DNA of 64,000 nt from Rhodocytophaga aerolata (GTDB taxonomy: Bacteria > Bacteroidota > Bacteroidia > Cytophagales > 172606-1), in NCBI RefSeq assembly GCF_030503435.1, contig NZ_JAUKPO010000001.1, positions 310,001 through 374,000 of the forward strand, given 5' to 3'. The notes beneath the pieces were generated by a model. It did no database searches and was not told the origin of the DNA. It saw nothing but the letters and a program-made list of their open reading frames with translations. Below, piece by piece: positions 10,253 through 63,826 of the stretch; positions within the stretch are counted from its first letter, which is position 1; each line of letters begins with the position of its first letter. The translations under genes and the position numbers were made by a program.

Positions 10253-11821
10253 CTATTGTTTCTGACTTACTACTTTCAACACCGAATCTTTATCTGATTT
10301 GGAAACCGAGTCTTTTTTATTGGTGTCTGTCCAGCCGGTATTAATGACTAGTTTCGGGTGTTGTTTTTGTAAAGATTGTACGCCGGTTTCGCTTACCTTG
10401 GTTTGCCACAGATATACGGACTGCAAGCCTTTAAAAGAAGTTAATTTAGGTAAGGCTTTGTCTGAAACGGCTGTGCCATACAAATTCAGGTATTCCAGAT
10501 TATCTAGCTTTTGTAGCGATGCAATAGCCTCATCAGTAATATTGGTTTTATCCAGCCGAAGCCTGGTAAGATTGCGTAAACTACTTATTTCCTTTAATCC
10601 TTCGTCAGTTATTTTGGCGTTACTTAGATCAAGCCAGGTAATTTGTGGGGCTATGGCTTGTAAAGCCTTGGCTTGTGCTTTACCAAAGTTTTCAGTTGTG
10701 TGTGTATATTTTACCTGCAAATACTGATTATCCTGCGAAATAGAGGTAACCTGGAAACCGGCTTTTTTTACACTGTCAATCGCGGAAGGCTTGGCCGGAG
10801 GTACTTGCTTGGCAAAAATACCTTTAGGTTTGCCCTCATCTTCTGTAGATACACCCAGGCTTGCAAGAGCCTTTTCCACCGGTTCTGTTACCGTTGCCTG
10901 GGCTACTTTTTTATCGGCCGAAGCACCTTCATCAATCCACCAGCGGATAAGTTCTATCTGGGCTTTGGTTAATTGTTTTTTACCCTTTGGCGGCATATGA
11001 TCATCATCTTCCAGAGGGAGGGTTATATGTTTGTAGAGAGGACTTTCAGCAGATTTTCCGGAAACCAGTACTTTTCCATCCTCGCCGCCTTTCATCAGGT
11101 CGCTGAACGTATGCATGAGTAGGTCGCCTTTCTTTTTATCCGGGTTGTGGCAACTAATACACCGCTCTTCAAAAATGGGATGAATAATGTCTGTATATAG
11201 TACGGCTTCCTGAATATTGGTGATGGGTTTAGCTTCCGTCTTTTTAACCGGAGCTGGTAAGCCAGCCAATGTCCGTAGCGGACCGGGCATGTACTGCGTG
11301 AGGTATTCGGAGCCATGCGTTAAGTTTCCACCCAAGTGACCTGCTACCATCAATACCACCATACTGGAAGCTAACAAAGGAAAATAAGCCTTAGACACCA
11401 ACGTTATGTTACTGACGGTGCGAATTTTTAGAAAATAGGCAATTGCGGATGTTACCGCTACCCCAATACCAAACCATTGATGCCAGAATAAAGCATCTTC
11501 ATCATACCCACCTTCAAAGGAAAGAAAATACCCCAAAATAGCTGCCGCTACTGCACTTAAGGTACCCAGGAGCAGTACCAGAGACGTAGCATGCCGCACT
11601 TCGCTGAACCGTTGCAGGCGGGAAAAGCATTCCAGCAGAAAGGCAATAATGAGAAAGCCAATAGGTAAATGCACAAACAGGGGATGAAAACGGCCCAGGA
11701 ATAATAGAAATTCGGATGGCTCGTCGGCATTCGTGGCTGCCATGACTGGTCCGGAAAGTATCAGAAAAAATAAAATGAGTCGGCTCTTCACAAAATATAA
11801 GTTAATGGAGTGGTATAACAA
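10253..11821 (-). CDS. DUF2231-like membrane / cytochrome c / leucine-rich repeat fusion
   Basis: A 522-residue three-part protein. A signal-like helix (about 11-29; a GTG at Val11 is an alternative start) precedes four membrane helices (about 45-160) resembling DUF2231, with RFHPLFVHLPIGF supplying His residues. Next comes a planctomycete-type cytochrome c domain (about 205-300) with CISCH (Cys221, Cys224, His225) and a candidate axial Met276 in DHMPPKGKK. Residues about 375-492 form four to five leucine-rich repeats (LDLSNAKITDEGLKEISSL and similar). It is the last gene of the DUF1553-DUF1501 operon, 26 bases after DUF1501, and would be the membrane haem partner of the exported operon products. 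The electron donor is unknown. Confidence 0.83.
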   Translation of the reverse strand: MLYHSINLYFVKSRLILFFLILSGPVMAATNADEPSEFLLFLGRFHPLFVHLPIGFLIIAFLLECFSRLQRFSEVRHATSLVLLLGTLSAVAAAILGYFLSFEGGYDEDALFWHQWFGIGVAVTSAIAYFLKIRTVSNITLVSKAYFPLLASSMVVLMVAGHLGGNLTHGSEYLTQYMPGPLRTLAGLPAPVKKTEAKPITNIQEAVLYTDIIHPIFEERCISCHNPDKKKGDLLMHTFSDLMKGGEDGKVLVSGKSAESPLYKHITLPLEDDDHMPPKGKKQLTKAQIELIRWWIDEGASADKKVAQATVTEPVEKALASLGVSTEDEGKPKGIFAKQVPPAKPSAIDSVKKAGFQVTSISQDNQYLQVKYTHTTENFGKAQAKALQAIAPQITWLDLSNAKITDEGLKEISSLRNLTRLRLDKTNITDEAIASLQKLDNLEYLNLYGTAVSDKALPKLTSFKGLQSVYLWQTKVSETGVQSLQKQHPKLVINTGWTDTNKKDSVSKSDKDSVLKVVSQKQ

Positions 11822-11847
11822 CTGTATAATTTCATGTACTTACTAAA

Positions 11848-13341
11848 TCAGGCAAGTATATCCCGTACTACTTGGCCATGCACGTCTGTCAGGCGGAAAT
11901 TACGTCCCTGGAAATGGTAGGTAAGTTTTTCATGGTTCATCCCTAGTTGGTTTAATATAGTAGCCTGAAGGTCATGCACGTGCACTTTGTCTTTTACCCC
12001 GTAATACCCAATTTCATCGGTTTCGCCAAAAGAGACGCCCCCTTTCACACCCCCTCCGGCCATCCATACGGTGAAGGCTTCTGTATGATGGTCGCGGCCT
12101 GTAAATGGATTTTCTTTTCCTTCCCGGTTTTCTAGCATCGGCGTACGGCCAAACTCTCCGCCCCACACAACCAGGGTATCTTCCAATAACCCTCTTTGTT
12201 TTAAATCCTGTATAAGGGCTGCCATAGGCTGATCTACTTCCCGGCAACGGTCCATAAACCCGAAATTCAAGGCTTCTTCTTTTCCTGCGCCGTGGGCATC
12301 CCATCCCCAATGGAAGAGCTGCACAAAGCGCACATCGCGTTCTATCAGGCGGCGGGCTAGTAAGCAATTATTCGCAAAAGACGATTGACCCGGACTTGTC
12401 CCATACATCTGATGCACAGATTCTGGCTCTTTGGAAATATCCATCGCTTCCGGCACAGATACCTGCATTTTAAAAGCCATTTCATATTGCGAAATCCTGG
12501 AAATTATTTCCGGATCGCCCATTTCTTTGTATTGCTCTTCATTAATTTTATTAATGGCATCCAAGGTATGCCGCCGTAAATCCCGGTTCATGCCTTTCGG
12601 ATCAGATACATATAGCACAGGTTCGCCTTTAGACCGGCACTCTACCCCCTGATATACCGTTGGCAGGAATCCGCTTCCATAGGCACTTTTACCAGCATCA
12701 GGCTGTTTGCCGCCAGACACTAAGACAATAAACCCTGGTAGATTTTCATTTTCTGATCCTAAGCCATAAGTTACCCAGGAACCCATACTTGGCCTGCCTA
12801 GGCGGCCATTGCCAGTTTGCATCAAGAGCTGGGCAGGGGCATGGTTAAACTCATTCGTATGCATGGCTTTGAGAAATGCTACATCATCTACCACCTTAGA
12901 AAAATAAGGCAAATGCTTGGAAACCCAGGCTCCCGACTGTCCATGCTGTTTGAATTCAGCCTGTGGGCCTAACATTTTTGGTACACCCTTAATAAAGGCA
13001 AACCGCTTTCCTTCCAGCAAAGATTGTGGGCAACTCTGTCCGTTGAGCTTCATCAACTCTGGCTTATAATCAAATAATTCTAGCTGGGAAGGCGCCCCGG
13101 CCATGTGCAAAAATATGACGCGTTTGGCTTTTGGAGCAAAATGGGCAGGTTTGGGGAGAAGCGGATTTGTGCTGTGTTCTGCCAATGCTTTTGCTGTGTT
13201 ACCTGTGGATTTTCCCGAGGAATTACATCCCAGAAACGAACCTAAAGCCATGGCTCCTAAACCTGTTGTGCATTTTAGCAAAAAATGCCGCCTGGTTAAA
13301 TATTGTAACCGCTCAAATTCCGCTTGTTCAAACAAATTCAT
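11848..13341 (-). CDS. DUF1501 family exported protein
   Basis: A 497-residue protein of the DUF1501 family, a sulfatase/alkaline-phosphatase-like fold. The N-terminus holds a twin-arginine motif (LTRRHFLLK, 15-23) followed by a hydrophobic stretch with a possible lipobox (SFLGCNS), so it is probably Tat-exported and may be lipid-anchored. Typical family blocks are visible: FLHMAGAPSQLELFDYKP, WVSKHLPYFSKV, SGAWV, QLFHWGWDAHG, VVWGGEFGRTP, GRDHHTEAFTVWMAGGGVKGG and HDLQATILNQLG. It is the middle gene of the operon with the DUF1549/DUF1553 lipoprotein (61 bases upstream) and the cytochrome/LRR protein. The enzymatic activity of this family is not established. Confidence 0.9.
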   Translation of the reverse strand: MNLFEQAEFERLQYLTRRHFLLKCTTGLGAMALGSFLGCNSSGKSTGNTAKALAEHSTNPLLPKPAHFAPKAKRVIFLHMAGAPSQLELFDYKPELMKLNGQSCPQSLLEGKRFAFIKGVPKMLGPQAEFKQHGQSGAWVSKHLPYFSKVVDDVAFLKAMHTNEFNHAPAQLLMQTGNGRLGRPSMGSWVTYGLGSENENLPGFIVLVSGGKQPDAGKSAYGSGFLPTVYQGVECRSKGEPVLYVSDPKGMNRDLRRHTLDAINKINEEQYKEMGDPEIISRISQYEMAFKMQVSVPEAMDISKEPESVHQMYGTSPGQSSFANNCLLARRLIERDVRFVQLFHWGWDAHGAGKEEALNFGFMDRCREVDQPMAALIQDLKQRGLLEDTLVVWGGEFGRTPMLENREGKENPFTGRDHHTEAFTVWMAGGGVKGGVSFGETDEIGYYGVKDKVHVHDLQATILNQLGMNHEKLTYHFQGRNFRLTDVHGQVVRDILA

Positions 13342-13402
13342 ACCTATCTATATTTAAGTCCACAGCCCATTATATTGCCAAGCTATGGAGTATTTAGTAA
13401 AT

Positions 13403-16180
13403 TTATTCCTTGGTTATTACCTCATCCAGATTCAATATGGCATTGCTAACTACGGTTAGTGCTGCCAGCTGAGTGTTGGTTGATTGTTCCTCCCCTAGTA
13501 TTGCTCCTACCTCTTCGGGCTTTTCTTTATAATAGGAAAGAGAGTTTGTATATAATTGCTTCAGAATAGCAAGTTTAGCAGCAGTAGGTTCCCGCAGTGT
13601 AGCTAGCTTATATCCGGTTTTTAATTGATCTTCTATGGTAGCTTCGTCCTTAGTTGAGCTCATCCGGCTGGCTAGCCCACGGGCAGCTACTATATAAACA
13701 GTATCGTTCAGTGTAACCAGGGCTTGCAAAGGTGTATTGGTCCGGATACGCCGGGAAACGCAAATTTCCCGGACTGGGCTGTCAAACGTGATCATGGAAG
13801 GATACGGAACTGACCTGCGCCAAAAGGTATAAATGCCTCTTCGGAAAGCATCTTCTCCCTCGCTGTTTTTCCATTGTAAACCACTGTACACCACTTGCCA
13901 CACACCTGCTGGCTGTGGAGGCATTACGCTTGGTCCACCCATTTTTGTACTTAATAAACCTCCTATGGCCAGTGCCTGATCCCGTACTTGCTCAGCCGTC
14001 AACCGGACTCTGGGGCCGCGGGCCAATAACCGGTTATAAAGGTCTTTTTCCTGCAGTTCCGGGGTCACTTTCGCCGATTGCCGGTAAGTAGCAGATAGCA
14101 CTAGTTGCTTCAGCATCTTCTTTACACTCCACTGCTGTTCATGCATAAACTGAAGTGCCAGCCAGTCTAACAATTCCGGGTGGGAAGGTTTCATGCCTTG
14201 AGAACCAAAATCCTCTAATGTTTCTACAATGCCTGTCCCAAATAATTGTTCCCAGAAGCGGTTAACAGTTACCCTAGCAGTTAGCGGGTTTTCAGGGCTA
14301 ACTAACCATTTTGCCATACCCAACCGGTTACTCGGAACTCCTTTTGGCAAGGGGTTCATGGAGGCAGGCACTCCACTCTGCACTTGCTCTCCTTTTACCA
14401 GCCAGTTACCCCGCACAAACACATGGGTTTTCCGGCGAGTAGTTTCGCCGTTCTCCTGCAGTATGGGCATTCTGTCTGGTTTAGCTGTATTGTGCAGGCT
14501 CAGCAAACTATCTTGTACAGCCTTGAACCCTGGTTTATCCCATCCTGGCATTGCTTCACTGAACACTACCCAGTCGACAATGGCTACTTCACTTTTCGCA
14601 GCAGGATTATTAAATACCAGATACACATCATGGGTTCCTTCGGTTGGCTGAATGAAAAACGATTTTACTACATATTTCCAGCGGCTACCAGTGCTTTCTA
14701 CCTGCCAGGTACCAATTTTTTCACCATCTACAGCACCTTTTCTAAGCTCTACCACACCGCCCGGACTTTCCGCTGCATACCGCGTAAACACTTGTGTTTT
14801 ACCAGTAAAATTAATTTGCTTTAGCCTGGTAAAGCCTGTATGATGTATTCCTGGCGATTTGTTATCTCCGGTAAGCACACCTTTCGTTAAAGAATCAAAA
14901 TTATGTCCGTGAAATTTTGGCTCCAGCACCTGAAGAAAATGGCGGATCTTTTGTTCTTGCTGCGCTTTTTCCTTTGCCGGGCTATGGTTTGTAATCCAGT
15001 CTTTTACTAACTGAACTTTTGTTTGCTCTTCCTGCTTAAAAAAATTCAGTGTTGGGGTTTCATTCGGGGTGTCTTCATCGCGGGTGTTATTAAAATACGA
15101 CATGAATTGGTAATATTCCTTTTGCCGGAATGGATCATAGGGGTGGCTATGGCATTGTACACAAGCCATGGTAGTCGCCTGCCATACTTCCCAGGTAGTA
15201 TTTACCCTATCTAGAACAGCGGTTGTGCGGAATTCTTCATCGTCTGTACCCCCTTCATCGTTGTTGGTCGTGTTCCTGTGGAAACCTGTGGCAATCAGTT
15301 GTTTTTCGGTCGGTTCTGGCAATAAGTCTCCGGCTAATTGTTCAACCGTAAACTGATTAAAGGGCAGGTCTTTATTGAATGACTCAATTACATAATCGCG
15401 GTACCGCCAGATATTCCGGAAATCGTCTTTTTCATAGCCTTTAGAATCGGCATAGCGGGCTAAATCTAACCACATAGCTGTCCAGCGTTCCCCATAGTGA
15501 GGAGAAGCCAGCAAGCGGTCTACTACTTTTTCGTAAGCGTTCGGAGAATTATCTTTCAGAAAACTGTCAACCTGGGTTTGTGTTGGAGGTAATCCGGTTA
15601 AGTCCAGCGTAACGCGGCGAAGTAAGGTTGTTTTGTCTGCTTCCGGAGAAGGTTGCAAGCCTTCTGCTTCCAGTTTTTGGAGAATAAAGTAATCTATCCC
15701 GTTTTTAGGCCAGGCAGTATTGCTTACTTTGGGTAACTCTTGGGGCTTGGGCTTTACATAGGCCCAATGATCTTCCCATTGTGCTCCTTGTTTAATCCAG
15801 GCTTTTAACTTGCGTATTTCTTCCTCGTTGAGTGGCGGGGCATCCAGGGGCATCCGGTATTCTGGATCGTCGTGTACCAGGCGTTTGATAAGTTCGCTTT
15901 CGCCAGGCTTGCCCGGAATAATGGCTGGTTGCCCTGATTCTGTTTCCGCCAGTGCTTCCTCCCTGAAAAGCAAACTAAAGCCTCCATTCTTTTTTACTCC
16001 CCCATGGCAAGAAATACATTTTGTATTAATTATCGGGCGGATATCTGCATTAAAGTCTATATGTTCATTTGAAGAACAAGCGCCAGCCAGGTATACGAGT
16101 GAAGCTACGCCTATTCCTTTTATCAAGGATAGACTATTTTTTTTCTTCATTTGTATGCTGAGGTTCCTAAGTAGCTTCAT
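13403..16180 (-). CDS. Planctomycete-type cytochrome lipoprotein, DUF1549/DUF1553 with CBM6-like domain
   Basis: A 925-residue exported protein. The signal ends in lipobox YLAGACSS (Cys35), so it is a lipoprotein. Residues about 40-135 form a PSCyt1 cytochrome domain with CISCH (Cys55, Cys58, His59) and candidate ligand Met110. DUF1549 follows (about 157-365; GERWTAMWLDLARYADSKGY) and contains a second CxxCH, Cys340-Cys343-His344 (CVQCHSHPYDPF). Residues about 440-541 look like a CBM6-type carbohydrate-binding domain (ARYAAESPGGVVELR-like strand, GTHDVYLVF). DUF1553 fills about 615-885. It is the first gene of the operon with DUF1501 and the DUF2231/cytochrome/LRR protein. The domain mix suggests haem redox chemistry on a carbohydrate, which is inference. 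Confidence 0.9.
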   Translation of the reverse strand: MKLLRNLSIQMKKKNSLSLIKGIGVASLVYLAGACSSNEHIDFNADIRPIINTKCISCHGGVKKNGGFSLLFREEALAETESGQPAIIPGKPGESELIKRLVHDDPEYRMPLDAPPLNEEEIRKLKAWIKQGAQWEDHWAYVKPKPQELPKVSNTAWPKNGIDYFILQKLEAEGLQPSPEADKTTLLRRVTLDLTGLPPTQTQVDSFLKDNSPNAYEKVVDRLLASPHYGERWTAMWLDLARYADSKGYEKDDFRNIWRYRDYVIESFNKDLPFNQFTVEQLAGDLLPEPTEKQLIATGFHRNTTNNDEGGTDDEEFRTTAVLDRVNTTWEVWQATTMACVQCHSHPYDPFRQKEYYQFMSYFNNTRDEDTPNETPTLNFFKQEEQTKVQLVKDWITNHSPAKEKAQQEQKIRHFLQVLEPKFHGHNFDSLTKGVLTGDNKSPGIHHTGFTRLKQINFTGKTQVFTRYAAESPGGVVELRKGAVDGEKIGTWQVESTGSRWKYVVKSFFIQPTEGTHDVYLVFNNPAAKSEVAIVDWVVFSEAMPGWDKPGFKAVQDSLLSLHNTAKPDRMPILQENGETTRRKTHVFVRGNWLVKGEQVQSGVPASMNPLPKGVPSNRLGMAKWLVSPENPLTARVTVNRFWEQLFGTGIVETLEDFGSQGMKPSHPELLDWLALQFMHEQQWSVKKMLKQLVLSATYRQSAKVTPELQEKDLYNRLLARGPRVRLTAEQVRDQALAIGGLLSTKMGGPSVMPPQPAGVWQVVYSGLQWKNSEGEDAFRRGIYTFWRRSVPYPSMITFDSPVREICVSRRIRTNTPLQALVTLNDTVYIVAARGLASRMSSTKDEATIEDQLKTGYKLATLREPTAAKLAILKQLYTNSLSYYKEKPEEVGAILGEEQSTNTQLAALTVVSNAILNLDEVITKE

Positions 16181-48049: not shown

Positions 48050-49135
48050 TTATCCATAACTTAACGCAGACCGGATCATTACAAATTCTTGTATATTGTT
48101 CATATCGATTACTCCTATCAGGCGGTTGCCTTCTACTACAGGAAAAAAAGCATTTTTCTTGCGTTGTGCATTTGCATATACTTCTGTGAGGCGGTCGCTA
48201 ATAGCTACTGTATCAAAATTCCGCTCCATTATTTCTGTTACGGCTTCTCCTGCCCGGTTTTCGCGAAGGGAGTTAATAATTAAGGAGCGGGTCATGATTC
48301 CTATAGCTTGTCCGTTGTCAACAACTATCAGATCCTGATCAGAGCCAGATAATAGTTTATCTGCTGCATCTTTCACTGAATCAGCCGGTGATAAGGTTAC
48401 GAAGTTGGTAATCATGGCACTTTGCACGGTGTAATCTTTCAGTAATTCCAGGTGTTGCACCATTACATTTTCTGTCCGGGCACCAAAGTATACAAATATG
48501 CCAATCAGAATCAGGATAGGATTGCCGGAAGTAAGGCCGAAAAAGACAAAGCCAAGCGCTAAAAACTGTCCTAAATTCGCCGCAATCTGTGTGGCACGCA
48601 TACGCCCCATCCTCATGGCAAGCAAAGCACGAAGAATTCTGCCACCGTCCATAGGAAAGGCCGGGATAATATTAAAAACCACTAAGGCCACATTTATTCT
48701 GAATAAAGAATTTAAAAAGCCTGCTGTACTAGCTATGCCTGCCGTTTCTTCATTAATAAACAGCTGATCGGTTTGAATAAATGGAAATAACAGCAGGGCA
48801 ATTACAACGTTTACTGCTGGTCCGGCAACTGCTACCCACAACTCTTGTCTGGGGTCCTCCGGAATGCGTTCCAGGCTAGCTACCCCACCAATAGGTAAAA
48901 GTGTAATTTTCTTGGTATCTACCCCGTAGCGCTTTGCCGTAAGCGAGTGGCCTAATTCATGTAGCAAGACGCAAACAAAAATACTTAGTACAAAAACCAC
49001 CGTGTTAATAATAGTGGGCGTATCGTTTCCCTTGCTAACGCCAGATATGACAATCCAGCCTAAAAGCAATAAAAAAGTCCAGTGTACGAGAATTTTTATC
49101 CCGGCAATTCTTCCAAGTACTAAAGATCTGCCCAT
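48050..49135 (-). CDS. Site-2 protease family (M50) membrane protease with two CBS domains
   Basis: A 361-residue intramembrane zinc protease of the SpoIVFB-like group. The zinc site is His59-Glu60-x-x-His63 (LLHELGHSLTAKRYG) and Asp163 in NIIPAFPMDGGRILRALL. About six membrane helices occupy residues 15-225. Two CBS domains follow (about 238-295 and 300-355; VQSAMITNFVTLSPADSVKDA, VTEIMERNFDTVAISDRLTEV), which in this group sense adenine nucleotides. It may cleave a membrane-bound regulator such as an anti-sigma factor, but none is adjacent. It is a single-gene unit. Confidence 0.92.
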   Translation of the reverse strand: MGRSLVLGRIAGIKILVHWTFLLLLGWIVISGVSKGNDTPTIINTVVFVLSIFVCVLLHELGHSLTAKRYGVDTKKITLLPIGGVASLERIPEDPRQELWVAVAGPAVNVVIALLLFPFIQTDQLFINEETAGIASTAGFLNSLFRINVALVVFNIIPAFPMDGGRILRALLAMRMGRMRATQIAANLGQFLALGFVFFGLTSGNPILILIGIFVYFGARTENVMVQHLELLKDYTVQSAMITNFVTLSPADSVKDAADKLLSGSDQDLIVVDNGQAIGIMTRSLIINSLRENRAGEAVTEIMERNFDTVAISDRLTEVYANAQRKKNAFFPVVEGNRLIGVIDMNNIQEFVMIRSALSYG

Positions 49136-50480: not shown

Positions 50481-51173
50481 ATGACTACAAATCAACAACA
50501 TATTCTCTCCATGTACCAGACAGTGTTGTCTTACATGGATGCTAAACCCACTATGTGGAATACAATAGGGCCTATTGTCAAATCTGTGTTTATGTTCAGA
50601 ACCTACGTAACAGCCCTTATTCAGCAAATGTATATTCAGCCTGGCCAAATGGCTGCACTCTATATGCAAGATAAAGATGGGCATATGCTGGCCATGTCGG
50701 ATATGTCGCTTGCTATTTTATTGAAGGTTCGCGCGTATGCTAAGGCATCTAATAATAAAGCCTTGCTTTATGCCATAAATTACTCTGAGAATGAGCTACG
50801 TACTGGTTCAGAAATACATATTGTGAAACGCTGCCAGACTATATATAACAAGGCAAAAGATCATTTAGCAGAATTGACAAAATATGGCGTTACTGAAGAA
50901 AGATTATCACAGTTGCAGCATGCCATAAACACTGTCAGACCTATGATTACTCACAGGAATGCAGTTGCGAATAAAAAATTAGCTGCTATGGTGAATGTGC
51001 CTTTACTTATTGAAGAAGCGCGGGCCGAACTAGAGAAACTCGACGAATTAGTTAAAACAACTATTTTTGATAGAAGGTATATAAAAATGTATATGCAGTT
51101 ACGCAATCAGACAGAAATGCCTTTACATACACCTTCTGTACAGATGAGTAGCAATAATCTGCAACTTTCCTAG
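50481..51173 (+). CDS. Helical hypothetical protein, 230 residues
   Basis: A cytoplasmic, almost entirely helical protein with no signal or membrane segment. It is rich in Met (about 17) and Gln and contains QQMYIQPGQMAALYMQDKDGHMLAMSD, NKKLAAMVNVPLLIEEARAELEKLDELV and RRYIKMYMQLRNQTEMP. I do not recognise a named family, though the pattern recalls uncharacterised helical proteins of Bacteroidota. It is isolated behind the long AT-rich region and ends at a terminator. Confidence 0.68.
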   Translation: MTTNQQHILSMYQTVLSYMDAKPTMWNTIGPIVKSVFMFRTYVTALIQQMYIQPGQMAALYMQDKDGHMLAMSDMSLAILLKVRAYAKASNNKALLYAINYSENELRTGSEIHIVKRCQTIYNKAKDHLAELTKYGVTEERLSQLQHAINTVRPMITHRNAVANKKLAAMVNVPLLIEEARAELEKLDELVKTTIFDRRYIKMYMQLRNQTEMPLHTPSVQMSSNNLQLS

Positions 51174-51613: not shown

Positions 51614-53173
51614 TTAATCTCCGGTGATATAATAAATCTGTAAATCTTTGTTCATTTTCAGCATAGTGTACAGCTTTCGGGTTTTCCAGCTGCGTTGATT
51701 GGGCCGACGGTACCTATAGTTTACATAATAATCTATCACGTAGTTACCTTTTTCATCTCTGGAATAGCGGAAAGTTTCCCACAACACGGTATACTTTGCT
51801 TCAGGTGTACGTTCCCATGCCTGGTTCTGCAACTGTTTCAGTAATTCATCTGACACACCATATTCGTTAAAAAACCGGATAAGGCTAGGGGCATAGTACT
51901 GAGCCAGGCGGCCAGAATCTTTAGCTTCCATAGCTTTGTAATAATTTTCTAAGCGGTATTGCAGCTCTGATTCCGTGAGCATAGCTGTATTGGCAGCCGC
52001 CAGGGTAGTAATCCCTTCCGGAATGGCAGATTCTTCAGTATCTGAGACAGAATCGTCTGCTATCGTAGAATCGGAGTCTTGATTGCTTTCAACAGAATCC
52101 ATATCTACCGATTGGGCTGCAGCATACGTTTCCCGGCTGGCAGACTTGGAGGCATTTTGATACAACAAGGTTATTATAAAAAAACAGGCGGCCATCAGCG
52201 TAAATACAGCAAATATGCCAGCCACCGTTCTCGACTTCTTCTTATGTTCAACAACTTTTATTACTGAATCAACTTCTGCGTCTGTGGATTGGATGCTGTT
52301 TACCGATATCTCCCGCAACATTTCCTGATATTGTTTCTCTCTTTCTTCATTCTGTATTTCCTGTACGGCTATTATAAACTCGTCTGCATCCGCAAAGCGT
52401 TCATCGGGATTTTTAGCAGTGGCTGTATTTACCAGCAGTTGTAGTTTTCCCCTGATCCCTTGCCTGATTTCATGTTCTTTAAACAGGGGTTCATATACGA
52501 TTTTGTTCTGTATCTCAAATTCGGAACAATTGCTTCTAGCATACGGACCATTTCCGGTGAGTAACTCATACAAGACAACACCTGCTGAATAAATATCTGT
52601 ACGGGCATCCAGAGATTTTTCATAAATCTGCTCAGGGCTTTTGTAGCACACATTCCCTATTTTAAAACCCGCCTTCGATAAAGCCATCGTATCGGTTGAC
52701 AGTAACCTGGATGTACTACAAAAAGAGATCTTTACTTTTTTATCTGTAGTAATAAAGATATTAGAAGGCTTAATATCGGTATGCAATACGCCGCGTCTGT
52801 GAGCTAAAGCAATGGCCCCTAGTAGCTGCAGAAAAATCTCCATAATTTCTTCTTCCGCAAGTTCTCTATCCGCCTTGTCGATGTATTGGGCCAGGGTAAT
52901 TCCATCTACATATTCCATCATCAGGCCAATGCCCTCTGTCGATTCTGCCAACTCGTAGATGTGTACAATATTTGGATGGTGCAAACTGCTAATCAGCGGA
53001 ACACTGTTCTTCAGATGTTTGGCCAGCCTGGTGCTTCTTACCAGGTATGGATTATAAACTTTTAAGGTGGCTGGGGTTCCCTTCCGGGTATCTGAGGTAA
53101 GATAGACGGTACTCATGCTGCTCATGTTGAGCAATTTTTCTACCTTATAATGGAGAACTTCCTTTCCTAACAT
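51614..53173 (-). CDS. Membrane-anchored Hanks-type pseudokinase with C-terminal NTF2-like domain
   Basis: The 519 residues contain a kinase-fold domain (about 8-275), a membrane helix (about 318-337), an acidic Ser/Asp linker and a C-terminal SnoaL/NTF2-like domain (about 400-519; LENYYKAMEAKDSGRLAQYYAPSLIRFF). Lys38 (ATLKVY), His131-Thr-Asp133 (LHTDIKPSN), SPEQ and Asp193 are kept. The glycine loop is NMSSMSTVY instead of GxGGMGxVY, the alpha-C Glu position is Ser, and the DFG site reads FCS (151-153; VKISFCSTSR). Three catalytic elements are thus lost while the frame is intact, which points to a pseudokinase, probably a scaffold or sensor. Close relatives with DFG would be active Ser/Thr kinases. 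Confidence 0.88.
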   Translation of the reverse strand: MLGKEVLHYKVEKLLNMSSMSTVYLTSDTRKGTPATLKVYNPYLVRSTRLAKHLKNSVPLISSLHHPNIVHIYELAESTEGIGLMMEYVDGITLAQYIDKADRELAEEEIMEIFLQLLGAIALAHRRGVLHTDIKPSNIFITTDKKVKISFCSTSRLLSTDTMALSKAGFKIGNVCYKSPEQIYEKSLDARTDIYSAGVVLYELLTGNGPYARSNCSEFEIQNKIVYEPLFKEHEIRQGIRGKLQLLVNTATAKNPDERFADADEFIIAVQEIQNEEREKQYQEMLREISVNSIQSTDAEVDSVIKVVEHKKKSRTVAGIFAVFTLMAACFFIITLLYQNASKSASRETYAAAQSVDMDSVESNQDSDSTIADDSVSDTEESAIPEGITTLAAANTAMLTESELQYRLENYYKAMEAKDSGRLAQYYAPSLIRFFNEYGVSDELLKQLQNQAWERTPEAKYTVLWETFRYSRDEKGNYVIDYYVNYRYRRPNQRSWKTRKLYTMLKMNKDLQIYYITGD

Positions 53174-53344: not shown

Positions 53345-53809
53345 ATGAAAAAAATCAATGCTCTTTTTGCCGTTTTATGTATGTTAACTGCATTTCTCCA
53401 GAATGCCTCTGCTCAGAATCCTGCTAGTTATGGGGCTCATTTTGTTCCGGATAATCCGGTGCCTGCTTCAGCCCTTACCAGCAAATTGAATGGAAAAGAA
53501 TCTGTTGACCTGCAGACAACCGGAACCGTAAAAGAAGTTTGCCAGGCTAAAGGCTGCTGGATCAAGGTAGATGCCGGCAATGGACAAGAAATGCTGGTAA
53601 AGTTTAAAGACTATGCTTTTTTCGTACCGAAAGATATTGTTGGAAAACAAGTTGTACTCAATGGAAAGGCTTTTCAGAAAACGATACCTGTAGCCCAGTT
53701 GCAACATTATGCCGAAGATGCCGGAAAGTCTAAGGAAGAAATTGCCAAAATAACCCAGCCTCAATCTTCCCTGCAATTTGAAGCGGATGGAGTGTTGGTA
53801 AAAAATTAA
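53345..53809 (+). CDS. Secreted DUF4920 protein
   Basis: A 154-residue exported protein with a signal peptide (1-23, ending ASAQ). The mature part has the DUF4920 pattern: YGAHFVPDNPVPASAL, VDLQTTGTVKEVCQAKGCWIKVD with two Cys, MLVKFKDYAFFVPKDIVGKQVVLNGKAF and LQFEADGVLVKN, an OB-like beta-barrel. Cys residues separated by three positions (CQAKGC) may bind a metal. Function is unknown. A hairpin terminator follows, shared with the convergent SDR gene. Confidence 0.87.
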   Translation: MKKINALFAVLCMLTAFLQNASAQNPASYGAHFVPDNPVPASALTSKLNGKESVDLQTTGTVKEVCQAKGCWIKVDAGNGQEMLVKFKDYAFFVPKDIVGKQVVLNGKAFQKTIPVAQLQHYAEDAGKSKEEIAKITQPQSSLQFEADGVLVKN

Positions 53810-61783: not shown

Positions 61784-62083
61784 ATGAGGACAACTTTAAC
61801 AGGCTATAGTATATTACTCATAATCGGACTGATAGCTTTTTCTTCCTGCCAGAAGAAAAATTGCCCTACCTTTTGGGGACCTGCCGATAACACCCAGGTT
61901 GCTTCAGATAGCAAAAAAGACTCTGGTGAAAATCTGGATACGGAGGATGGCGAACGCACGGTAGAGTTTCCGGTAATACGGGTAAAGCGGGATAAGAATG
62001 GCATTGTTACCAAGCAGCAGCCTAAAAAGGGAAAGAAAATGTATAAAGACCCTAGAAAAGATTACAAACCACAACGAAATTAA
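61784..62083 (+). CDS. Small lipoprotein, 99 residues
   Basis: The signal ends in lipobox AFSSCQKK (Cys22). The mature part has a CPTFWGP segment, then an acidic region (DSKKDSGENLDTEDGERT) and a very basic C-terminus (KRDKNGIVTKQQPKKGKKMYKDPRKDYKPQRN). No known domain. It is the first gene of a three-gene group with the basic repeat protein (65 bases downstream) and YtxJ, suggesting a shared envelope function. Function is unknown. Confidence 0.72.
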   Translation: MRTTLTGYSILLIIGLIAFSSCQKKNCPTFWGPADNTQVASDSKKDSGENLDTEDGERTVEFPVIRVKRDKNGIVTKQQPKKGKKMYKDPRKDYKPQRN

Positions 62084-62148
62084 CCTTGATTTACTGAGCA
62101 GACCCCTCCAGTTCAAGATTTAATCCTAATTAAACACCCTGCACATTG

Positions 62149-63009
62149 ATGCAACAAGTTATTGTTACCTGCTTAAGGGCACTGTTTACATCCTGTTTTG
62201 CTTTTCTTTGTAAAAGAAAGGTAGCAGGTAGTGTATATGCAGGTACTGTTCAAACACTTTGTATAGTATTAATAAGCCTTTTTTTTATCAGTATCCCGGC
62301 AGCCGACGGATTCTCCCAAAGTAAAAAAGACCGGGAAAACCTAGGTATGGTGAAAGTGAGGTCTGATAAATTTAAACGGAAGAAATCTAAAGAAACAGCC
62401 AATTTTACCAGCAGAAACTATAATAACAATCCTCCGGGAGGTTCAGTAAAAGACCGCCAGAAAATGTCGTCTTTTATGGGTAATGGCTTGGTACCCGTTT
62501 CTAAACCTAGTGGCGGTAATATTGGAAATCCCAGCAAAGCAGAAGCCTACCGCAACCTGAAGCCGCTGAAACCAGGCCGCAATCCGATGGGTGAACAGAT
62601 TGCCCGCCAATCGCAAGCCTATAAAGGTAATGGCTTAGTTAAAAGTGATTACAAAAAACGGAAAGATGCCCGCAGACGCGATGGCAGGTTTGGCCACTAT
62701 AAAGGTGTACTGGTAAAAAGTGATTATAAAAAGCGGAAAGATGCCCGCAAGAAAAGTCAGCAGATTAGCAAGTACAGAGGAGATCTGTTAGTGAAGAAAA
62801 TGCCAAAAGGTGCACATCCAAGTGCTGTATGGAGAGGTGGAAAAGTTAAAAATTCTTATCAGCAAAAGGAGAAATACCGTCAGCGGATGATGAAGCGGAT
62901 TGGCAGAAATAAAAACAATCTTCAGCCAAATTATTTGCGGAAGAAAAACCGAGAAGAAAAACCAACGTATGATTCAAGAGAGAACGAAATTTGGAGCAAA
63001 CCTAGATAA
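62149..63009 (+). CDS. Exported, extremely basic repeat protein
   Basis: A 286-residue protein with a long N-terminal region containing a hydrophobic segment (TLCIVLISLFFISIPAADGF, about 39-58) ahead of SQSKKDRE, so the real start may be further in; I use ATG 62149. The mature part is rich in Lys/Arg/Asn/Gly. It contains two nearly identical copies of a VKSDYKKRKDAR unit (about 165-176 and 190-201), each preceded by YKG, and related GNGLV and LLVKKMPKG segments. The pattern suggests a secreted basic, probably disordered, protein that binds polyanions. The family is unknown. YtxJ follows after 6 bases. Confidence 0.68.
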   Translation: MQQVIVTCLRALFTSCFAFLCKRKVAGSVYAGTVQTLCIVLISLFFISIPAADGFSQSKKDRENLGMVKVRSDKFKRKKSKETANFTSRNYNNNPPGGSVKDRQKMSSFMGNGLVPVSKPSGGNIGNPSKAEAYRNLKPLKPGRNPMGEQIARQSQAYKGNGLVKSDYKKRKDARRRDGRFGHYKGVLVKSDYKKRKDARKKSQQISKYRGDLLVKKMPKGAHPSAVWRGGKVKNSYQQKEKYRQRMMKRIGRNKNNLQPNYLRKKNREEKPTYDSRENEIWSKPR

Positions 63010-63015
63010 AAACCT

Positions 63016-63372
63016 ATGAACTGGATTAAATTGAATGACTCGTCACAAGTAGACGAAATAAAAAAGGAATCGGAACAACAACCTGTCTTAATATTTAAGC
63101 ATAGTACCCGTTGCTCTATCAGTGCAACTGCCCTAAGCCGGCTGGAGCGTTCGTGGAAGGACGATGACATGAAAGAGTTGAAACCTTATTATCTGGACCT
63201 GCTTAGCTACAGGCCTATTTCTAACAACATTGCCGAAACCTTTGGTGTATATCATCAGTCGCCTCAGGCGTTGATTATCCACAAGGGTAAATGTGTATAC
63301 AACTCCTCACATTTTGATATTACTTACCCGGATATTAAATCGCAGATGGAGACTATTACTAAAGTAGCCTAA
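63016..63372 (+). CDS. ytxJ: Bacillithiol-system redox protein YtxJ
   Basis: A 118-residue monothiol thioredoxin-like protein. It reads NWIKLNDSSQVDEIKKES, PVLIFKHSTRCSISATALSRLE with a single active-site Cys in RCSIS, YYLDLLSYRPISNNIAETFGVYHQSPQALIIHKGKCVY, and ends in a helix, matching YtxJ. YtxJ removes bacillithiol from proteins, so the organism probably makes bacillithiol. It begins 6 bases after the basic repeat protein, suggesting translational coupling, and a strong terminator follows. Confidence 0.9.
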   Translation: MNWIKLNDSSQVDEIKKESEQQPVLIFKHSTRCSISATALSRLERSWKDDDMKELKPYYLDLLSYRPISNNIAETFGVYHQSPQALIIHKGKCVYNSSHFDITYPDIKSQMETITKVA

Positions 63373-63410
63373 ACAAAAAGAGCAGAATGTAGATTCTGCT
63401 CTTTTTGTTT
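63371..63410. terminator. Bidirectional terminator between ytxJ and the OsmC gene
   Basis: Perfect 18-bp arms (63371-63388 with 63393-63410) with a 4-nt GTAG loop and A-run/T-run ends lie between the convergent stop codons. Confidence 0.92.
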
Positions 63411-63418
63411 ATTGGCGC

Positions 63419-63826
63419 CTAAAAAGTAAAACTTACCACTTGCTCTACGTCCGGATGCAGACTCAACGCCACCGGACAGGTTAAAGCAGCTCTTTTTAAT
63501 TTTTCTTGCTGCTCTATAGATAATGATATATTGGCTTTCATATCAAATACAATTTCTATTTTAGCAATTTTTCTGGGATTAGAAGCCATCGTCTTAATAA
63601 TTTCAAATTTTGTATCCCGGAGTTCAATTTTTTCCCGTTCAGCGACTATTCCCATAATAGTCATCATACAGCTGCCTAAGGCTGCACACACCAGGTCTGT
63701 TGGAGAAAAGGCTTCGCCCTTTCCGTTATTATCTACCGGGGCATCTGTAATAAGGGTATTACCTGAGGCAACATGCGTAGCTTTTGTCCGGAGATTACCC
63801 TGATAAATTGTCTGGATTGTTGGCAT
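63419..63826 (-). CDS. OsmC family peroxidase
   Basis: A 135-residue thiol peroxidase of the OsmC/Ohr family. It has IYQGNLRTKATHVASGNTL, the AFSPTDLVCAALGSCMMTIMGIVAE segment with the first redox Cys (GSC), and ALTCPVALSLHPDVEQVVSF with the second. The Arg/Glu partners of the active site are harder to place by eye. It reduces organic hydroperoxides, probably in the cytoplasm. A TAnnTTTG-like box lies upstream (63869-63876, minus strand) without a clear -33 partner. Confidence 0.92.
   Translation of the reverse strand: MPTIQTIYQGNLRTKATHVASGNTLITDAPVDNNGKGEAFSPTDLVCAALGSCMMTIMGIVAEREKIELRDTKFEIIKTMASNPRKIAKIEIVFDMKANISLSIEQQEKLKRAALTCPVALSLHPDVEQVVSFTF

Follow-up and report, generated by a model that had tools for sequence, protein, structure and literature searches.

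The gene at coordinates 51614–53173 of the window (the whole 64,000-nucleotide stretch of DNA analysed here) raises the question of whether a kinase-like protein with several of its catalytic motifs replaced, joined through a membrane helix to an outer domain, still acts as an enzyme or signals by binding. The gene is on the reverse strand, as are all of the features within it described below, its 519 codons are open throughout, and the 519-residue product has a kinase-TM-NTF2 order. The kinase domain (residues 1–272; 52358–53173) matches PF00069 across residues 17–260 (1.3e-35), and at 123.5 bits against a cut-off of 31.7 this is the full-length Hanks-type fold that had been proposed for it; matching to PDB sequences finds PknB (2.7e-35). 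Foldseek with a full-length AF2 model confirms the kinase fold and nothing more, and as that model is poor (pLDDT 56, 3 rows) we have not interpreted its active site. The gene stands alone, with genes transcribed from the opposite strand on both sides: 53345–53809, which encodes a DUF4920 protein, and 50481–51173, which matches no Pfam family. The promoter pattern that we take to be typical of Bacteroidota has no match within the window.

The catalytic changes listed in the original prediction are all real, both in the sequence itself and in its alignment to relatives. All four P-loop glycines are absent, with NMSSMS at residues 16–21 (53111–53128) where active relatives mostly have GEGGMG, the alpha-C glutamate is replaced by S57 (53003–53005), and F151-C152-S153 (52715–52723) is in the place of DFG. 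Two further sites are lost, the P+1 threonine being replaced by N174 and the alanine preceding the beta-3 lysine by T36. The beta-3 lysine itself is kept (K38; 53060–53062), together with the aspartate of H131-T132-D133 at the HRD position (52775–52783), K135, N138, and S179-P180-E181 at the APE position (52631–52639). Bioinformatically, a pseudokinase lacks at least one of the VAIK lysine, the HRD aspartate and the DFG aspartate, as worded in passages of PMC4718504, and with F151 at the DFG aspartate position the domain falls within this definition. The pseudokinase call is thus supported by the sequence and also by the relatives described below, and from it we infer a loss of activity. A recent point mutation of an active gene is ruled out, as kinase-domain identity reaches no more than 41–42% among the relatives found and no relative with an intact DFG is found at over 90% identity.

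Because K38, D133, K135 and N138 are retained, the domain could have some residual activity, and the protein could be an atypical but active kinase capable of weak or cation-independent phosphotransfer in the manner of CASK or TRIB2. CASK transfers phosphate without a DFG aspartate and TRIB2 has a low cation-independent activity (PMC4718504); however, CASK retains its glycine-rich loop and lysine (PMC4718504), whereas this protein has lost all four glycines, the alpha-C glutamate and the P+1 threonine. Moreover, the lysine and the HRD aspartate are gone in the other four degenerate proteins of the family, so that any activity would be confined to the window protein, and we regard this explanation as quite unlikely.

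The single hydrophobic segment (residues 319–337; 52163–52219; hydropathy maximum 2.54 over 19 residues) is preceded by a KKKSR stretch, and because of this the kinase half is predicted to be inside and the C-terminus outside. An acidic linker (residues 342–399; 51977–52150; 12 D/E and 2 K/R) leads into the outer domain (residues 400–519; 51617–51976), which is captured by our NTF2 profile A2 and falls below the cut-off for Pfam families by sequence, both for DUF4440 (20.4 against 25.2 bits) and for DUF3909. SnoaL_2 is matched by 6 of the 12 A2 members at E values up to 5, the best at 1.8e-7. An AF2 model of the outer domain alone has a mean pLDDT of 65 from a 3-row alignment, and with this model VIA-align finds a CaMKII hub (Z 9.0) and 3lyg (Z 8.9) tied at the top, with 112 and 102 of 124 residues aligned; the program warns that best Z scores of 7 to 8 are common without true kinship. 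Foldseek with the outer domain yields no NTF2 match below 0.001 (best 6.5e-3), and a profile search of PDB sequences with this domain gives nothing firm (best 0.051). Mainly from the VIA-align result, the predicted fold appears to be NTF2-like, a class defined by a cone of helices and a curved sheet. All 24 aligned rows share W453 and Y486, and 25 outer-domain columns are invariant in the five degenerate proteins, including L404, W465, T467, D473, Y488, R489, W496 and T503.

CaMKII, an active kinase without a membrane helix, likewise has a Ser/Thr kinase followed by an NTF2-like domain; the predicted helix in the window protein places it outside the CaMKII family. That the outer domain is nonetheless an assembly hub of the CaMKII type, and the protein a scaffold gathering other kinases, seems very improbable: the CaMKII hubs are its best structural neighbours (Z 9.0 by VIA-align) and CaMKII is multimerised by its C-terminal NTF2-like domain (PMC3924330), but other NTF2-like proteins, 3lyg included, score within 1 Z of these hubs, and the mean pLDDT of the model is only 65. 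A C-terminal NTF2-like domain is also present in cotton MKK3 (PMC4945917).

The kinase-TM-NTF2 order recurs in relatives, but neither the FCS triplet nor the glycine-free loop is conserved among them, each degenerate relative being damaged differently. We compared 24 full-length proteins of this order from three families of the order Cytophagales (f1, f8 and f14). Nineteen of these keep the lysine, the alpha-C glutamate, HRD, the catalytic-loop lysine and asparagine, and the DFG aspartate, and four of the nineteen, forming a second f1 subfamily, have an altered glycine loop. The remaining five are degenerate, and all are within the window's own family. The eleven f14 rows were filtered on a length of >440 and the letters DFG, which all 11 loci passed with none dropped; a further locus (L082 in genome G160) was excluded since its kinase part, with HRD and DFG intact, and its NTF2 part are in two overlapping ORFs. 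Near-copy rows are present in the sample (G051/G102 and G003/G005).

Five places in the window's own genome (G000) pass the Pkinase cut-off, two of them being the window pseudokinase and a degenerate kinase-TM-NTF2 paralogue, L035, on contig C44. The close relatives within this genome are L035 and an intact kinase on contig C158, which directly adjoins a PP2C phosphatase gene and is without an NTF2 domain. Further degenerate copies are found in G001 (L037), G004 (L044) and G006 (L047).

No two of the five degenerate proteins share a pattern of residue loss. The window protein has K at the beta-3 position, S at the alpha-C position, HTD, N and FCS, and is the sole keeper of the beta-3 lysine, whereas L037 has R, Q, HHS, C and GFG, and is alone in having a GxGxxG loop. 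The corresponding residues are E, K, HGH, H and GFG in L044, and E, R, HGQ, F and GLG in L047. Among the classical elements (glycine loop, lysine, alpha-C glutamate, HRD aspartate, asparagine and DFG aspartate), the alpha-C glutamate alone is lost in all five, and each of the other five elements is retained by at least one member. The losses in L035 (7328–8959 on C44) are almost complementary to those in the window protein, as it keeps DFG and the asparagine and has R for the beta-3 lysine, L for the alpha-C glutamate and HMA for HRD.

In a tree of the NTF2 domains the five degenerate proteins form one clade with support of 100/99, establishing, at the level of sequence, a common descent of the outer domain. 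In the best kinase-domain tree, from which two g3 kinases without NTF2 domains were dropped, the five are on one side of a branch with support of 56/75, and when the fastest row (L047) is removed the best tree splits the other four, although their union is not rejected (p-AU 0.38). Because this union is weak, the kinase halves of the five may be of separate origin. A group with support of 100/100 in the kinase tree separates the five from the second f1 subfamily only, and we have not used it. The five have kinase end branches of 0.89–4.26 changes per column, where the median over all rows is 0.22, and NTF2 end branches of 0.32–0.49; three active kinases without NTF2 domains are similarly long-branched (1.35–1.82), and the tree program warns of long branches. 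In a table of ten, the best kinase-domain identities with a fellow pseudokinase and with an active kinase, respectively, are 34 and 41% for the window protein, 42 and 38% for L037, 42 and 42% for L035, 32 and 38% for L044, and 28 and 35% for L047. The kinase tree pairs L037 with L035 (100/98) and the NTF2 domain of the window protein is nearest to that of L037 (52%), groupings that the long branches render unsafe.

The two halves of these proteins differ in which is the better conserved. All 105 pairs formed by the 15 active proteins have a higher identity in the kinase domain (mean 66%) than in the NTF2 domain (mean 35%), and 5 of the 6 pairs within the second f1 subfamily likewise favour the kinase domain. 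Among the pseudokinases this is so in none of ten pairs (30% for the kinase domain, 44% for NTF2), the NTF2 domain being better conserved in all ten, and constraint in the pseudokinases is thus inverted between the halves relative to the active proteins, as judged by pairwise identity.

The losses are also unevenly placed within the kinase domain. We defined near-invariant columns as those with at least 90% agreement across 29 active rows, excluded from the conservation counts six rows of the type found in the second f1 subfamily, and chose 13 active-site columns ourselves from known kinase anatomy. The five degenerate proteins together keep 19 of 65 near-invariant cells in the active site and 181 of 277 in other columns (Fisher p 1.4e-7), and the window protein alone keeps 4 of 13 and 39 of 56, respectively (p 0.013), both p values being nominal because the rows are related and few. 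Thirteen fold columns are kept in all five (Y9, H66, E87, L94, H125, H131, P180, D193, Y195, G198, A251, T252 and R259), and nine other columns are kept in none (A36, E57, R132 and T174, together with R53, F54, I154, T166 and M178), so that besides the alpha-C glutamate the functional positions A36, R132 and T174 are lost throughout. Erosion directed at the active site in a fold that is otherwise kept is the pattern predicted by a loss of catalysis, unlike that of a plain pseudogene.

The faster evolution of the kinase half, evident in both branch lengths and pairwise identities, could instead mean that this half is a drifting, functionless relic, that the use of the protein lies in its anchored NTF2-like domain alone, and that the gene is on its way to encoding a membrane-anchored NTF2 protein. 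Kinase-free NTF2 domains behind membrane segments do occur in the order, and a sixth family copy, a relative of the G006 pseudokinase in G002 (L040; 6784–8150 on contig C2), has broken reading frames. However, these breaks may reflect either decay or an assembly error, as the oxidoreductase-like gene next to this copy encodes 310 aa where the equivalent gene in G006 encodes 355 aa. Five of the six copies have a full-length kinase domain of about 250–270 aa, and fold residues are selectively kept (181/277 against 19/65), such that we consider a functionless relic unlikely.

Returning to a kinase fold retained after catalysis is lost, the pattern of losses suggests that the loss is old, repeated and confined to one bacterial family, and is not a single-gene accident. 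If the kinase halves share an origin, then by parsimony their common ancestor probably still possessed most of the active site, and the losses would be later, separate events. It is plausible, at a little under an even chance, that a near-intact kinase-TM-NTF2 ancestor lost the alpha-C glutamate, that this freed the active site, and that its descendants then eroded differently while the outer domain stayed better conserved. If so, there would be several independent routes within one family from an enzyme to a transmembrane signal that acts by binding only, and the active sisters that share the architecture would serve as controls.

Synteny was considered as a guide to orthology and to partners and was set aside, as close neighbours in common (matches to 1e-8) are seen for one pair only, G002 and G006, two members of a single genus. 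The regions around the window gene and L037 share weak family-level matches only, and in G001 relatives of three flanking genes are at two places, neither with a pseudokinase within the surrounding 17–18 kb. Because synteny is this weak, the window gene, the G001 gene and the C44 paralogue are not callable as orthologues, and no close orthologue of the window gene was found. A juxtamembrane segment (residues 267–345 of the window protein) is visibly conserved among the three copies in the genus (the window protein, L037 and L035), with a pattern of (D/E)-E-R-E ... S-(T/V)-I-(K/E), of which the other genus retains only S-x-I-E.

The reading that we favour, with moderate confidence, is that this Hanks-type pseudokinase spans the membrane and sends its signal by binding. 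The NTF2-like domain would dimerise or bind a ligand outside the inner membrane, the single helix would transmit its state inwards, and the kinase fold would serve as a docking or allosteric module, carrying out no normal phosphotransfer. Action through an active Hanks kinase is a more tentative, somewhat doubtful step, for which the most likely target would be the kinase encoded beside the PP2C phosphatase gene on C158, elsewhere in the genome. Kinases of the C158 type, at 49% identity or more over nearly the whole length, are present in G000, G001, G002, G004 and G006, which are also the genomes with a pseudokinase (broken in G002). In G003, G005 and G007 (the last 72% complete) the pseudokinase is absent and only remote kinases are found. 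This co-distribution hints at a pairing of dead and live kinases, and counts as one evolutionary contrast because the split follows genus lines (g1 and g2 against g3); neither an operon nor synteny joins a pseudokinase to a kinase at the loci compared. A genome with two pseudokinases and one PP2C-linked intact kinase offers a small test set on whether, in bacteria, live kinases come under the control of dead ones.

The original prediction knew of no description of this combination, a view that is right only in part. Passages of PMC3924330, from 2013, describe proteins in which an NTF2-like domain outside the cell is linked to a domain inside it, in some cases a Ser/Thr kinase, and propose that the outer domains bind ligands. 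These fusions (DUF3828, DUF3887 and DUF4878) have, like the window protein, a Ser/Thr kinase inside and an NTF2-like domain predicted to be outside, but dead kinase domains go unmentioned in those passages, and the outer domain here is matched by none of the three families, only by DUF4440 and DUF3909 below their cut-offs. We found no paper on an NTF2-fused bacterial pseudokinase in the open-licence PMC literature.

Bacterial pseudokinases, largely unexplored experimentally according to a 2025 review (PMC12599244), include five families that are wholly pseudokinase (ActPs1-3, GLW and DLHK) and two that are so in part (CP1 and DYD). In the parts of the review that describe them, these families share with the window protein a degenerate Hanks fold, several are membrane-anchored and their functions are unknown; none of the terms NTF2, SnoaL and Bacteroid appears in its main text. 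By the descriptions given there the window protein is set apart from three of the families: from DYD (beta-3 lysine to arginine, no alpha-C glutamate, DYD motif) by K38 and FCS, the alpha-C loss alone agreeing; from GLW (beta-3 lysine to leucine or tryptophan) by K38; and from DLHK, which has no transmembrane region, by the predicted helix at 319–337. In its motif state the window protein is most like TRIB1. TRIB1 and TRIB2, in passages of PMC4718504, similarly keep the beta-3 lysine and catalytic aspartate, have no alpha-C glutamate and a degraded glycine loop, and have SLE for DFG; they are thought to be scaffolds, with no nucleotide binding seen for TRIB1 and weak binding for TRIB2. They differ in being mammalian and in having a C-terminal COP1-binding region, and kinship is claimed for the kinase fold only.

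The nearest solved kinase domains are those of the PknB/Stk1 PASTA kinases, which have a kinase-TM-sensor layout. The window protein differs in having no PASTA match and in the loss of its catalytic site, and at 209.8 bits for NF033483 against a cut-off of 450 it is not a PASTA kinase. As the architecture is intact in sister families and has been damaged in several separate ways within one family, the role of a kinase fold after its chemistry is lost becomes directly comparable.

The NTF2 profile A2 has matches in 46 of the 390 genomes searched within the order, in 18 of 395 sampled across the class and in 9 of 395 sampled across the phylum, the three draws overlapping in part and the matches in the order having been opened in part. 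Of the class-level and phylum-level matches, 19 loci were opened; one is a kinase fusion (L137 in G988), with the lysine and HRD intact in the part printed, and we read the N-terminal parts of the other 18 as lipoprotein signals, proteases or unknown domains. In family f12 all seven opened loci have a short N-terminal motif, which we take to be SHOCT-like, followed by a TM segment and the NTF2 domain, without a kinase. Kinase-free NTF2-like modules placed after a short N-terminal motif and membrane segments are seen at L091–L097 and L116–L118 in f12 and f1 genomes. In a scan of contigs, relatives are on two contigs from uncultured Cytophagales MAGs, with one distant kinase match in a Woesearchaeota MAG, and 795 plasmid records have a match, none covering 80% of the query.

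Elsewhere in the window, the M50 peptidase with CBS domains at 48050–49135 seems to have lost its middle part in a congener (G001, contig C1, 1151115–1151501), where matches cover residues 1–83 and 316–360 only, one of them with stops. The secreted-looking protein at 62146–63009 contains LVKSDYKKRKDAR twice, and no DNA-level tandem repeats were scored at 62000–63500. Judging from their translations, three consecutive genes at 10253–16180 are presumably a set of the cytochrome-domain/DUF1501/DUF1553 type.
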